Assembly (NCBI RefSeq): GCF_011761235.1 | Contig: NZ_JAAOYW010000001.1 | Span: 1,178,781-1,242,780 of the forward strand | Origin: Frigoribacterium faeni | GTDB taxonomy: Bacteria; Actinomycetota; Actinomycetes; Actinomycetales; Microbacteriaceae | Direction: 5' to 3' | DNA length: 64,000 bases | In this document: one piece after another, positions 13,026-18,951 of the stretch | How the letters are laid out: every line of letters starts with the position of its first letter | Numbering within the stretch: position 1 is the stretch's first letter | The notes under the pieces: generated by a model | Database searches by the model: none | Seen by the model: the letters and a program-made list of their open reading frames with translations, nothing else | Told to the model about the DNA's origin: nothing | Translations under genes and position numbers: made by a program

Positions 13026-13035
13026 TGCTGCGAGC

Positions 13036-13835
13036 GCGTCGAGCTCTCAGGAGACGGCTGCGGGCGCGGTTGCTCGTTCCGGGGCAAGCCGGGGCGCGGC
13101 GACGAGTGCACCTGAACGGTCGACGCGCCCGCACGGGAAGTACGGCCGCCGCCTGCCGGCTCCATCTCTCGACGGCCCGGACCACCCCGACGCGTCGAGG
13201 TCTCAGGAGAGAACGGCCGACGCACCTTCCAGCGCAGGGTCGCCCGGGGCGCGGCGACAAGCACACCTGAACCGTCGACGCGCCCGAACGGAAAGTACGG
13301 CCGCCACACGGCGGTCCTCGTTCTCGGCGACCCTGACCTCCCCGACGCGTCGAAGTCTCAGGCGGCAGCGACAGACGCACCTCCCGGCGCAGGGCGGCCC
13401 GGGGCGCCGGGACGAGCACACCTGAATGGTCAACGCGCACGCTCGGGGAGTACCTCGCCGCACCGTTTGCCCGATGTCTCGACGGCCCGGAACACGTCGA
13501 CGCGTCGAGGTCTCAGGACACGGCGGCCGACGCACCCGCCTGACCCCTGCAGACCTCGGGCGCGGCGACGAGCACACCTGAATCGCCGACAGCCCTGCTG
13601 CGCCGCGCGGCGCGGGCGCCCGCCCCGACGCGTCGAGGACTCAGGAGACGGCGGCGGGCGCAGCCGCCTGACCCCGAGCAGCCCTGGGCGCCGGACGAGG
13701 ACACCTGAGACGTCGACGCGTCGGCCGCGCCTCGGGGCGCGAGGGCCCGCGCCCGCGTCGAGGACTCAGGTGACGGCGGCGGGCGCGCCGCCAGGCGGAG
13801 GGGGGACCGCCGCACCGCGACGGACGCGCCTGAGA
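13036..13835. repeat. Six-unit degenerate tandem repeat array
   Basis: Six units share an anchor GCGTCGAGGTCTCAGG (or ACTCAGG) starting at 13036, 13192, 13347, 13502, 13630 and 13755, giving periods of 156, 155, 155, 128 and 125 bp. Each unit also holds GACGAGCACACCTGA about 60-75 bp later, so CTCAGG and CCTGA recur as an inverted pair. Units diverge in between. Because periods are mostly not multiples of three, the open frames over the array change from unit to unit, so it is not a repeat protein. Most of the 1021-bp gap at 12917-13937 is this array. Confidence 0.8.
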
Positions 13836-13937
13836 CCTCGACCCCGGAGAGCGACGTCGAGCCACGGGCCGGGCCGGCTGGCGACGGCGGACAGCCGAGA
13901 TGGGCGCGGGAGGCGGTCGACGTGTCAGGCTCGGGGC

Positions 13938-14862: not shown

Positions 14863-16455
14863 TCAGGGAGTCGTGCGCGCCGCCTCCTGCGCGACCACCT
14901 CGTCGAGGTCGTCGAGCCGGCGGAGCCCCTGCAGCGGGCGCATCATGCGCGGGTTGCCCTGCAGCGCGGGCTCGGCCCGGTCGAGGAACGCCCAGTAGCC
15001 CGCCGTGAACGGGCACGCCTTCGGCCCCAGCCGCACGGTCGGCGAGAACGGGCACGACTCGCAGTGGTCGCTCATCGAGTGGATGTAGCGGCCGCCGGCG
15101 GCGTAGGGCTTGGTGGCGACCACTCCCCCGTCGGCGTGCTGCGACATGCCGACGATGTTCGCCGGCATGACCCACTCGGTGCCGTCGACGAAGACGTCGG
15201 TGAACCAGTCGGTCAGGTCGGCCGGCCGGTAGCCGCGCTGCAGCGCCCAGTTGCCGAGGATCATCAGCCGCTGGATGTGGTGGGTCCAGCCGTGCTGGTG
15301 CACCGTCTCGAACGTGCTGCGCAGGCACTCGGCCTGCACCTCGGACGCGTCGACCTCCAGCCACCAGCGCGGCAGCGGCTCGGTCGCCGCGAGCGCGTTG
15401 TTGTCGACGGTGTACGACTCGCCGAGGTGCCAGTAGAGGTGCCAGACGTAGTCGCGCCAACCGGCGACCTGCCGGACGAAGCCCTCGACGCTCGCGAGGG
15501 GCGCACCTCCGGACGCGTGGGCCTCGAGCACGCGCTCGATCACCCGTCGCGGGTCGAGCACCCCGAGGTTCATCGGCACGCTGAGGAGGGAGTGCGACAT
15601 CGTCCAGTCGTTCGAGAGCATCGCGTCCTCGAAGGGGCCGAAGTCGTCGAGGCGGGTGACGACGAAGTCCTCGAGGGCGGCCTCGGCCTCGGCGGGCGTG
15701 ACGGCGAACCGTCGACGGTCGTCGGCCCCGACGAACACGACGTCGCCTACGGCGGCCCAGGCGTCGAGGTCGGCCCGGACGGTGTCGTCGACCCCGTCTT
15801 CGTCGGGCCAGACCGGGTCGGGCTGACCCAGCGTCGTCGCCCCCTTCGGCGGCGGGTTGCGGTTCTGCTCGTCGAGGCTGAACTTGCCGCCGGCCGGGCC
15901 GTCGCCCTCGATCAGCCAGTCCTCGCGGCGTCGGACGGTCTCGTAGTGGTTCTCCATCAGGAGGCGCCCCGTGCGTGCGGCGGCCCAGGTCGCGAAGTCC
16001 TCTTCGCTGGTCACGAAGCCGCGGCTCGGCAGCACGCGCACGTCGCGGCCCTCGCGGCGGACGGCACGCCGCAGCTGCCGGTCGGGCGGGTCGACGACCT
16101 CGAACGGACCGAGCCCGGCGGCGTCGTCGAGCACCTCGTCGAGGGTCCCGACCTGCACGTGGGTGGCCCGGTCGCCGAGCGCGGCGACCCGATGCCGCAG
16201 GGCGGACAGCCAGAGGTGCGCCTTCGCGCGGTGCATGGGCCGCCGCGTGAAGAACTCGCGCGCCTCGACCACGACGACCGGGCCGCCGTCGTCGAACTCG
16301 TCGCCGTACTGCCCTGGGAGGATGAGCCGTGCGCGCGGCCCGTCGTCGCCGGCGGCGGAGCCTCGAGCAGCCGCAGGGGCGTCAGGTGCGGGGGCGGGGG
16401 CGGGGGCAGGGGCGGGGCCGGGAGCGGGGGCGTCGGCGTGCGGCGTCTCGGACAT
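14863..16455 (-). CDS. Iron-sulfur bacterial cryptochrome/photolyase (FeS-BCP, (6-4) photolyase type)
   Basis: A 530-aa cryptochrome/photolyase-related protein. Four cysteines, Cys377, Cys465, Cys468 and Cys481, have exactly the 88/3/13 spacing of the [4Fe-4S] ligands of Agrobacterium PhrB (C350, C438, C441, C454). The segment HQHGWTHHIQRLMILGNWAL is the conserved FAD-domain stretch. By family it repairs UV (6-4) photoproducts in DNA using FAD, a lumazine antenna and the cluster, or acts as a light sensor. About 30 extra residues at the N-terminus are an Ala/Pro repeat (PAPAPAPAP). The ATG at 16455 lies six bases after TAGGTT, so it is likely leaderless. The first of the four hairpin units starts 57 bases upstream. 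Confidence 0.92.
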   Translation of the reverse strand: MSETPHADAPAPGPAPAPAPAPAPDAPAAARGSAAGDDGPRARLILPGQYGDEFDDGGPVVVVEAREFFTRRPMHRAKAHLWLSALRHRVAALGDRATHVQVGTLDEVLDDAAGLGPFEVVDPPDRQLRRAVRREGRDVRVLPSRGFVTSEEDFATWAAARTGRLLMENHYETVRRREDWLIEGDGPAGGKFSLDEQNRNPPPKGATTLGQPDPVWPDEDGVDDTVRADLDAWAAVGDVVFVGADDRRRFAVTPAEAEAALEDFVVTRLDDFGPFEDAMLSNDWTMSHSLLSVPMNLGVLDPRRVIERVLEAHASGGAPLASVEGFVRQVAGWRDYVWHLYWHLGESYTVDNNALAATEPLPRWWLEVDASEVQAECLRSTFETVHQHGWTHHIQRLMILGNWALQRGYRPADLTDWFTDVFVDGTEWVMPANIVGMSQHADGGVVATKPYAAGGRYIHSMSDHCESCPFSPTVRLGPKACPFTAGYWAFLDRAEPALQGNPRMMRPLQGLRRLDDLDEVVAQEAARTTP

Positions 16456-16512
16456 GCCCGGAACCTACGCCCGGCCACCGACACCGGCCCCGGCCCCAGC
16501 CCCGGGCGGGGG

Positions 16513-16829
16513 CGAGTGGTCGGACATGGTCGTTCGCGGGGGCGGGAAGGCCACCACGGGACCACTCGGCCCCGAGCCGGCCGGAGTCGGCCGTGAGCAG
16601 GCGTGAGAGGCCGAGAACGGTCGTTCCCGGGGGCGGGAGGGTCGAATTCGGGCCTCTCGGCACAGCGAGCCGGGCCCAGCCAGCCGGCGCGAGTGGTCGT
16701 CAGTCGTCGTTCCCGGGGGCGGGAGGGTCGGATCGGGACCTCTCGCCGCGGCCAGCTAGCTAATCGGCCAGGGCGAGTGGTCGGTAAAGGTCGTTCCCGG
16801 GGGCGGGAAGAGCACCACGGGACCACTCG
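16513..16829. repeat. Array of four hairpin units with conserved loop motif
   Basis: Four units at 16513-16568, 16604-16659, 16690-16745 and 16774-16829 share one plan: a 9-bp stem arm, 6 nt, a 21-nt core starting GGTCGTTCCCGGGGGCGGG, 11 nt, and the complementary arm. Every unit spans 56 nt. Stem arms are CGAGTGGTC/GACCACTCG in units 1 and 4, TGAGAGGCC/GGCCTCTCG in unit 2, and CGAGTGGTC/GACCTCTCG in unit 3. The core can form an inner hairpin TCCCG-GGGG-CGGGA. Unit starts are 91, 86 and 84 bp apart, so the array is not a coding repeat. It fills most of the 420-bp gap between the photolyase start and the iron permease stop. Confidence 0.88.
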
Positions 16830-16875
16830 GCCCCCGGGCCGACCGGCCGGGCCGGCCAGCCGGCAGGCCCGGCCC

Positions 16876-18951
16876 CTACCGCCCGGCCCGCCCCCGCCAC
16901 AGCAGCCACACGAAGTACGGCGTCCCGATCACCGCGGTCAGCAGCCCCGCGCCGAGCTGGGCCGGCGCGATGACGGTGCGGCCGAGCACGTCGGCGAGGC
17001 CGACGAGGGCCGCGCCGAGCACGACGGCCACGGGCAGCACGCGGGCGTGCCGCGCCCCGACGAGCGAGCGCGCGGCGTGCGGGGCGACGAGCCCCACGAA
17101 CCCGACGACGCCGACGGCGGACACCGCCGTCGCGGTGAGCAGCACCGCGACCGAGAGGAACAGCAGGCGCGACCGCGACAGCGAGACCCCGAGCAGCCGC
17201 GGGGTGTCGTCGTCGAGCGCGACGAGGTCGAGCTGCCGGTGCCGGGCGGCCGCGACCGCGAGGGCGGCGACCAGCACCGCGGCCACGGGCGCCGAGTCGG
17301 AGAACGACCGGCCGTAGGTCGACCCCGACAGCCAGGTCAGCGCCTTGGCACCGTCGAACGGGTCGGTCAGCACGATCAGCAGGCTGATCGACGCGGCGGT
17401 CGCGGCGGCGACCCCGACGCCGACGAGCACCAGGCGGTCCTGCGGGAACCCCCCGCGCGCCGCGAGGCCGAACACGACGACGGCCGCGACGACGGCCCCC
17501 GCGAACGCCGAGCCGGCCACGCCCCACCCCGAGACGGCGGGCAGGGTCGTCACGGCGACGACGGCGCCGAGCCCGGCCCCGCCCGAGACGCCGAGGATGC
17601 TCGGCTCCGCCAGCGGGTTGCGCGTGACCGCCTGCACGAGCCCGCCGGCGAGGGCGAGCGCCGCGCCGGCGAGCAGCGCGGCCACGACCCGCGGCACGCG
17701 CGTGTCGAGCACGTAGGTGACGACGGGCCCCGCCCGCCCGGACAGCCAGTTCGCGACGTCGCCGAGCAGCAGCACCGCGTCGCCGAGCAGCACGCCCGCG
17801 ACGGCCACCCCGGCCACGGCGACGACGAGCAGCGCGACCACGACCGCGAAGCGCCGGCGCGAGACGACCCGCTGCCGCTCGGCGGGGGCGGACCCGCCGC
17901 GGTCCTGCGCCCGGACGGCGAGCACCACGAGCACCACCGCTCCCACGATCGAGGTGACGATGCCGGTGGGCACCTGCACCGACGCGTCCGCGCCGACGAC
18001 GGCGCGCAGCAGCACGTCCGACGCGAGCACGACGGCCGCGCCCGCGAGGCCCGCGAGCGAGACGAACGCCCAGGTGCGGCGAACGCTCGGCACGAGCCGG
18101 CGCAGCGGCCGCACGAAGGCGGGAGCGCAGAGGCCGACGAAGCCGATCGGCCCGGCGACGGTGACCGCGCCGGCCGAGAGCAGCACCGACGCGACGACGG
18201 CGACGACGCGGGTGGTGCGCACGTCGACCCCGACGCTGCGGGCGGCGTCGTCGCCGAGGCCGAGGGCGTCGAGGCGCCGCGTCATGAGCAGCACGACGAC
18301 GAGGCCGACGAGCACGACGGGCGTCATCTGCGCCACCGACGAGAAGCCGTTCTGCCCGATGCTGCCCTGCCCCCACTGGTACAGCCCGGCGGTCTCTCGC
18401 GGGAACAGCAGCAGCAGCGCGCTCGTCACGCTGGCCAGCCCGAGCGCGAGGGCGCTGCCCGCGAGCACGAGCCGCACCGACCCCGAGCCGAGCCCCGACA
18501 GCGCGAGCACCACGCCGGCCGCGACCAGCCCGCCGACGAAGGCCACCCCCGAGGAGGCGACCAGCGGCAGCGACAGGCCCGTCACCGAGGCCACGGCGAG
18601 CGCCGCGTACGCCCCCGCGTTCACGGCGAGGGTGTCGGGCGAGGCGAGCACGTTGCGGCTCACCGTCTGCAGCGCCGCCCCGGCCGCGCCGAGCGCGACC
18701 CCGACGAGCAGGCCGGCGGCCGTGCGCGGCAGCCGCGACGCGACGACGACGGAGGCGTCGCCCGCCGTGGCCGAGCCGGTCAGGGCCCGCCACACCTCGC
18801 GCGGGCCGACCGCCGCGGTGCCCTGCGTGAGGTCGACGAGGGCGAGGAGCACGACGACGGCCGCCAGCGCGACGACGACGGCCACGGCACCGCGGCCGGC
18901 ACGGGGCGGGGCGGCGACCCGCACCTCCTGCCGGTCTGCGGTGACGGTCAC
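16876..18951 (-). CDS. Fused double FecCD-type iron-siderophore ABC permease
   Basis: A 691-aa membrane protein made of two FecCD/BtuC-like permease domains in one chain, about residues 20-340 and 345-690, each with roughly ten transmembrane helices. Both halves carry the family landmarks: LPRTAAGLLVGVALGAAGA and RVPRVVAALLAGAALALAGG near their starts, and GPIGFVGLCAP versus VGVVGFVGLVAPH later. This is the FhuB arrangement (about 660 aa); most actinobacteria use two separate genes. The start is GTG 18951, four bases after the binding-protein stop. It is the last gene of the IdeR-boxed operon. Confidence 0.94.
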   Translation of the reverse strand: MTVTADRQEVRVAAPPRAGRGAVAVVVALAAVVVLLALVDLTQGTAAVGPREVWRALTGSATAGDASVVVASRLPRTAAGLLVGVALGAAGAALQTVSRNVLASPDTLAVNAGAYAALAVASVTGLSLPLVASSGVAFVGGLVAAGVVLALSGLGSGSVRLVLAGSALALGLASVTSALLLLFPRETAGLYQWGQGSIGQNGFSSVAQMTPVVLVGLVVVLLMTRRLDALGLGDDAARSVGVDVRTTRVVAVVASVLLSAGAVTVAGPIGFVGLCAPAFVRPLRRLVPSVRRTWAFVSLAGLAGAAVVLASDVLLRAVVGADASVQVPTGIVTSIVGAVVLVVLAVRAQDRGGSAPAERQRVVSRRRFAVVVALLVVAVAGVAVAGVLLGDAVLLLGDVANWLSGRAGPVVTYVLDTRVPRVVAALLAGAALALAGGLVQAVTRNPLAEPSILGVSGGAGLGAVVAVTTLPAVSGWGVAGSAFAGAVVAAVVVFGLAARGGFPQDRLVLVGVGVAAATAASISLLIVLTDPFDGAKALTWLSGSTYGRSFSDSAPVAAVLVAALAVAAARHRQLDLVALDDDTPRLLGVSLSRSRLLFLSVAVLLTATAVSAVGVVGFVGLVAPHAARSLVGARHARVLPVAVVLGAALVGLADVLGRTVIAPAQLGAGLLTAVIGTPYFVWLLWRGRAGR

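Follow-up and report, generated by a model that had tools for sequence, protein, structure and literature searches.

The window (the whole stretch of DNA that was analysed, 64,000 nt) carries a series of four related units between two genes that the sequence-only reading had named as a photolyase gene and an iron permease gene. Pfam confirmed both neighbours (DPRP, photolyase-related, and FecCD). The features are as follows.

14863..16455, - strand: photolyase-related gene (Pfam DPRP); its listed ORF start lies 57 bp from the array
16513..16568, no strand assigned: unit 1, outer arms CGAGTGGTC / GACCACTCG, 38 bp between the arms
16604..16659, no strand assigned: unit 2, outer arms TGAGAGGCC / GGCCTCTCG, 38 bp between the arms
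16690..16745, no strand assigned: unit 3, outer arms CGAGTGGTC / GACCTCTCG, mismatched at one position
16774..16829, no strand assigned: unit 4, outer arms CGAGTGGTC / GACCACTCG
16876..18951, - strand: FecCD permease gene, containing two stretches of FecCD and ending (3') 46 bp from the array

Four units of 56 nt were found in register at 16513-16829, with spacings of 91, 86 and 84 bp, as had been claimed. The 9-nt outer arms form 9, 8, 8 and 9 Watson-Crick pairs in units 1 to 4; the other arm positions are one extra T-G in unit 2 and one mismatch in unit 3. The joint change of both arms in unit 2, from GAGTGGTC/GACCACTC to GAGAGGCC/GGCCTCTC, was seen as described. When up to three mismatches were allowed, the core GGTCGTTCCCGGGGGCGGGA matched only the four units in the whole window (expected: 0.02), and the core is near-identical in all four, probably because they are related local copies. 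The inner stem proposed for this core did not hold as a general feature: it is peculiar to the four window copies and differs from the family structure described below, in which inner arms of 14 bp are complementary. Complementary inner positions number 5, 5, 6 and 4 of 14 in units 1 to 4, and the window units are poor family members in this respect. The arms CGAGAGGCC/GGCCTCTCG recur at three further loci of the window's genome (L247, L248 and L254). A comparison of the 341-bp array with plasmids gave no match.

Other repeats were observed in the same window. A second array at 13035-13850 has six units 125-156 bp apart, each containing an inverted pair like CGCGTCGAGnnCTCAGG (exact in five of six) and CCTGAnnnGTCGACGCG (variable); it, too, starts with GTCGAG. 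The 10-mer GGAGGCGCGG/CCGCGCCTCC occurs 16 times (0.86 expected), ten times in intergenic DNA and in places as inverted pairs; its positions include 36016, 36040, 36148, 38550 and 38601. Its 9-mer GGAGGCGCG was present in 9.1 % of the 60-bp flanks of the elements and in 1.4 % of background windows.

The covariance model R1, a check of the kind named in the sequence-only reading, was built from 47 elements including the window units and found tens of copies in the window's genome: at least 85 matches on two strands, corresponding to at least 46 sites after strand merging (150 of 5117 candidates scored). The elements are dyads of two inverted half-sites of ~23-25 bp with the structure GTCGAGTGG[T/G]C + N7 + G + N6. 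The outer arms are 38-40 bp apart and enclose a free loop of 10-12 bp in the centre, and the inner part of each half-site, 14 bp long, is typical of a species or subfamily and contains a near-invariant G. With exact arms and a permitted spacing of 30-50 nt, 13 sites were obtained in the genome, units 1 and 4 among them, and all 13 had 38 nt between the arms; the reversed pattern, used as a control, gave none. In the loci from the genome collection described below, with distances of 36-40 bp allowed, the counts were 70 for 38 bp, 44 for 39 bp, 13 for 40 bp and one each for 36 and 37 bp. Outer-arm variants come as matched pairs (CGAGTGGTC, CGAGTGGGC, CGAGAGGCC, CGAGTTGCC and others). In 854 kb of loci chosen for holding pairs, 258 of 296 arms stood in inward pairs 36-40 bp apart, a count that bears on a comparison with DNA uptake sequences, for which abundant single copies beside the inverted pairs would be expected. 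Local clusters have a spacing of about 84-119 bp. The outer-arm conservation in alignment A4 is partly a matter of ascertainment, many elements having been collected by their exact arms.

A scan of a genome collection yielded at least 115 loci with the pattern. Among the matches listed, at least eight of the 14 inner positions were complementary in 117 of 129 exact-arm sites (2.5 % expected), and the inner G was present on both arms in 105 of the 117; the remaining 12 include the one Acidobacteria MAG. By genus, the 117 listed sites comprised Frigoribacterium (53), Microbacterium (13), Herbiconiux (12), Curtobacterium (6) and Kribbia (4), and further holders were Brevibacterium, Kocuria, Leifsonia and other actinobacteria, with two labelled only 'uncultured bacterium'. 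With the filters tightened and no more than 22 candidates scored per genome, a match was found in at least 79 of 249 genomes of the taxonomic family. The distribution was patchy, and 37 of the 79 had only one or two matches. One genome, G004, gave a single weak match among the matches listed; a generic dyad scan by eye of 240 kb around its dnaA gene revealed no repeated 56-bp family, and one dyad, with the arms CGAGTGTCC/GGACACTCG, was seen at L218. The exact-arm pattern had no matches in viral contigs. We conclude that the four window repeats are a local cluster of a dispersed intergenic family present in many actinobacteria. In the open-access literature searched, no description of the 56-bp repeat was found.

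Dyads of other types were also encountered. A fixed-length dyad of 58 bp, GTGAGCCGTCACGAACGGCTC ..., is present twice in the window's own genome (L245:6060-6117 and L246:3920-3977), and three dyads (L247:7378, L248:2043 and 2176) measure 83-85 bp and have the arms CGCAAATGCCGA / TCGGCATTTGCG. Kribbia (L078, L097, L140 and L182 pooled) has, beside the usual type, a second arm type CGAGTGATG/CATCACTCG with the inner sequence G(T/A)TTCGGG.

At the permease end the site is inherited within the genus. In ten of 13 permease orthologues examined, an element lies 36-106 bp past the aligned coding sequence; a decayed element was recognized by eye in G014 and none in G002 and G003. The gap between the photolyase-related gene and the permease gene contains four copies in the window and two, one and one in relatives that are 87-91 % identical. 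The window array is a local cluster of dyads behind a siderophore permease operon.

The placement of the elements was related to genes, which were called here with a home-made finder instead of standard annotation. In a redundant locus set, 246 of 257 elements were intergenic. Of 148 placed deduplicated elements (24 were left unassigned in this tally), 58 were in convergent gaps (36 expected), 74 in tandem gaps (73) and 16 in divergent gaps (39). Moreover, 71 of 132 elements (54 %) were located within 50 nt of a stop codon, compared with 36 % expected, and 83 of 104 elements in tandem gaps were closer to the upstream stop, orthologous copies being counted separately. This 3'-end preference is what transcription terminators, or RNA hairpins of common sequence that stabilise 3' ends, would produce, and stable folds were found on the + strand (z -2.2 to -2.9). 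Like intrinsic terminators, the elements can form hairpins and lie mostly near stop codons. Unlike them, they have no T-run after the stem (T made up 5-20 % at each of the 14 positions outward of it, with a window average of 12.5 %), and the 16 of 148 elements in divergent gaps do not fit such a function.

The sequence-only reading had left open whether the array is a structured RNA or a protein-binding array. No Rfam family reached its gathering score anywhere in the window, and at E values up to 1 the region 16300-17000 gave only mir-3569, with 18.7 bits vs 50 needed. Covariation was strong in the 47-element alignment (195 cells with both sides changed vs 83.9 after shuffling, sd 7.6). Inside tight subfamilies (cut 4), paired double changes of the inner arms were at the shuffled level (51 vs 46.0, sd 5.9), and the excess appeared at the looser cuts (cut 5: 100 vs 66.6, sd 7.2; cut 6: 189 vs 101.5, sd 8.9); orthologous copies were counted separately here too. 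The arms appear to change independently inside tight subfamilies, and we read the strong covariation and the excess at loose cuts as a mixing of subfamilies, beside which a hairpin reading may still hold. A repeat family may covary strongly without having RNA structure, and much of the covariation here probably reflects the exchange of whole subfamilies.

A test of the stem mismatches drew on 204 distinct, non-overlapping elements whose neighbours had been predicted on both sides, orthologous copies again being counted separately, and when mismatches were oriented by transcription in the 98 tandem-gap elements, 77 were G-T and 82 were A-C (P=0.75). The transcribed strand carries no mark. The earlier alternative was partly supported. 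Its RNA half found no backing in Rfam matches, G-U asymmetry or significant compensation in tight subfamilies, and the DNA-site half fits the data best, with half-sites conserved and the loop free at orthologous sites (see below). Compensation at the looser cuts speaks for terminators, together with the folds and the placement; against them stand the lack of a G-T surplus, the sequence conservation of the outer arms across genera, the absent T-run, the copies in divergent gaps and the patchy occurrence (at least 79 of 249 genomes of the taxonomic family). We regard the terminator reading as unlikely, though worth keeping in mind because of the 3'-end preference.

In some genomes the half-sites were uniform across copies. 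In M. resistens (13 copies), inner identity was 0.94 between copies and 0.93 when the two arms of a copy were compared, with a loop identity of 0.44 (random: 0.37). The F. faeni set (22 copies, with G006, probably Frigoribacterium, pooled in) gave 0.87 between copies and 0.86 within a copy, with a loop identity of 0.39 (random: 0.35). A point against the DNA-site reading is that five of the seven sets had higher identity between the arms within a copy than between arms of different copies: 0.68 within vs 0.49 between in the window's own genome, 0.90 vs 0.51 in Kribbia, 0.85 vs 0.71 in Herbiconiux, 0.74 vs 0.69 in Curtobacterium and 0.79 vs 0.75 in CFBP 13712. Half-sites are homogeneous within some genomes and differ between genomes.

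We compared copies at orthologous sites, using strains with syntenic blocks 84-97 % identical together with the permease end and the L249/L250 locus sets. Thirty of 35 pairs were compared; the five left out comprise three losses (G010), a different subtype (G009) and one length change, and three of 28 site-by-strain comparisons had no joint match. In the 30 pairs, which share common history and are not independent, and whose reference copies were picked as intact, changes affected 11 of 540 outer-arm positions (2.0 %), 98 of 840 inner-arm positions (11.7 %), 55 of 300 loop positions (18.3 %) and none of 60 inner G positions. Strain G010 lacked an element at three of six comparable sites, and G009 had another subtype at one. 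None of these comparisons revealed a new insertion opposite a clean empty site. The half-sites look as if they are under selection for sequence and the loop is free.

These data bear on a neutral reading, in which the units are relics of miniature elements and template switching at quasi-palindromes keeps their arms alike. Template switching can yield compensatory changes without selection, as described in PMC8794818. Such a process, however, would not leave the outer arms and the inner G intact at orthologous sites where the loop and the inner arms do change, nor would it produce a single half-site shared by copies whose loops are unrelated, and we consider this explanation improbable.

One of the locus sets, L249/L250, is a syntenic island with GNAT, GrpB, SdpI and NERD genes in both strains and five elements per strain; an amidohydrolase gene and a G5-domain gene were found in one strain only. 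The elements here separate small genes of mixed function, as integron-like recombination sites between gene cassettes would. The genes point both ways, however, and where two elements enclose the amidohydrolase gene in L249 (G005), L250 (G015) shows two elements ~75 bp apart. Since L250 keeps both elements, recombination between them did not excise the amidohydrolase gene; such an excision would have left a single joint site. On this comparison of one locus, an attC-like function is largely refuted, and we regard the integron reading as very improbable.

The position of the elements on the chromosome was also considered. In the single-contig relatives G008 and G015, distances to dnaA were below uniform among the matches listed (16 clusters, P=0.024, and 13 clusters, P=0.029, respectively), the weaker sites of G005, G008 and G015 being left out, and in the window's own genome 22 of 30 clusters lay on C2, the contig with dnaA, which holds 38 % of the bases (P=9×10−5). 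Such crowding near the replication origin would be in keeping with chromosome-organising sites of the matS or parS kind. The tests come from one genus and are not independent, however; element numbers are patchy among genomes, and clusters also occur far from dnaA (1648 kb in G015 and 1433 kb in G005). The crowding around dnaA is suggestive only, and we think a chromosome-organising role of this kind has little probability.

The genes near the elements were searched for a possible partner. Ten proteins, representatives mostly taken from recurring clusters, were compared with Pfam and proved mostly ordinary (ABC_tran, SDR, zinc dehydrogenase, FecCD, LacI, GNAT and aldo-keto reductase). One recurring neighbour family weakly matched REase MTES_1575 or DUF559 at its C terminus, with bits below the curated cut-offs. 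In Frigoribacterium this REase-like gene is bracketed by elements at one orthologous locus (L163, L251, L285 and others), at distances of 291 and 68 nt in L163 and 224 and 6 nt in L251. In Homoserinibacter gongjuensis (L115:1126-2264), elements with the same loop at 1126 and 2207 bracket the gene, predicted there in two pieces, and in Herbiconiux L145 it lies 666 nt from an element. As background in L070-L184, nine of 813 genes were bracketed within 400 nt and 268 of 813 lay within 700 nt of an element. A jackhmmer search of the examined stretches of the window's genome found no REase-like homologue. The three independent loci were picked after the fact among loci chosen for holding elements, and the REase-like (MTES_1575/DUF559) protein as partner of the dyads is a lead, not a proof.

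Taken together, our findings give an even chance to the reading that the family consists of REPIN-like intergenic DNA dyads read by a putative trans-acting protein. This protein would probably be a dimer that recognizes long half-sites, and it would read the dyad as duplex DNA; alternatively, its substrate could be an extruded or single-stranded hairpin. Its specificity would drift with the lineage, such that the copies in one genome come to have a common half-site, and copies would arise rarely and mostly locally and would sometimes be lost. The driver would not be RAYT, the REPIN transposase. It may be speculated that a REase-like nuclease cuts at the dyads and that break repair could homogenise the half-sites. 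More tentatively, and with somewhat less than even confidence, we propose that these DNA sites form an actinobacterial class served by a dedicated trans-acting protein, which may be REase-like. The class might be a RAYT-free REPIN-like replicator or a chromosome-marking system, with half-site specificity rewritten genome-wide in each lineage, a free loop and several flavours per genome. If true, this would point to another, independent route by which REPIN-like repeats are made and maintained, in actinobacteria that lack RAYT. The 56-bp duplex offers a precise bait for the putative binding protein, and the REase-like gene is a first candidate for it.

Among known systems, the family shares with MITEs its short, non-coding form, terminal inverted repeats and intergenic location. 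In contrast to MITEs, the arm ends of 229 elements showed no target-site duplication of at least 3 bp, and no parent transposon was found. Small excesses of flank duplication were seen at 2 bp at the arm ends (17.9 % vs 8.0 %) and, in shifted frames, at 4 bp (4.4 % vs 1.4 %), 3 bp (7.0 % vs 3.6 %) and 2 bp (18.3 % vs 11.1 % and 15.3 % vs 10.4 %); they probably come from palindromic flanks.

REPINs are linked to RAYT transposases. A search of the window's genome for RAYT (Y1_Tnp, PF01797), which was positive in five of 14 control genomes, gave no matches; in the taxonomic family, Y1_Tnp was found in two of 249 genomes, one of which (G041) is element-rich. The family differs from REPINs also in its halves. 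The half-sites start with GTCGAG and by inspection carry neither form of the REP tag, GTAG or CGTC, that is given in PMC3733652. Whereas each REPIN half has its own small palindrome, only one of the types inspected here, that of F. faeni, showed a small inner palindrome. Because RAYT is absent and the halves are not tagged REPs, we do not class the family as REPINs. The likeness lies in the architecture. REPINs are characterized in PMC3116915 by inverted conserved ends, a less conserved spacer of constrained length and an extragenic location, and by clusters of up to four and more than one flavour per genome. The dyads described here likewise have two inverted conserved ends and a spacer of constrained length, are extragenic, form clusters and come in several flavours.
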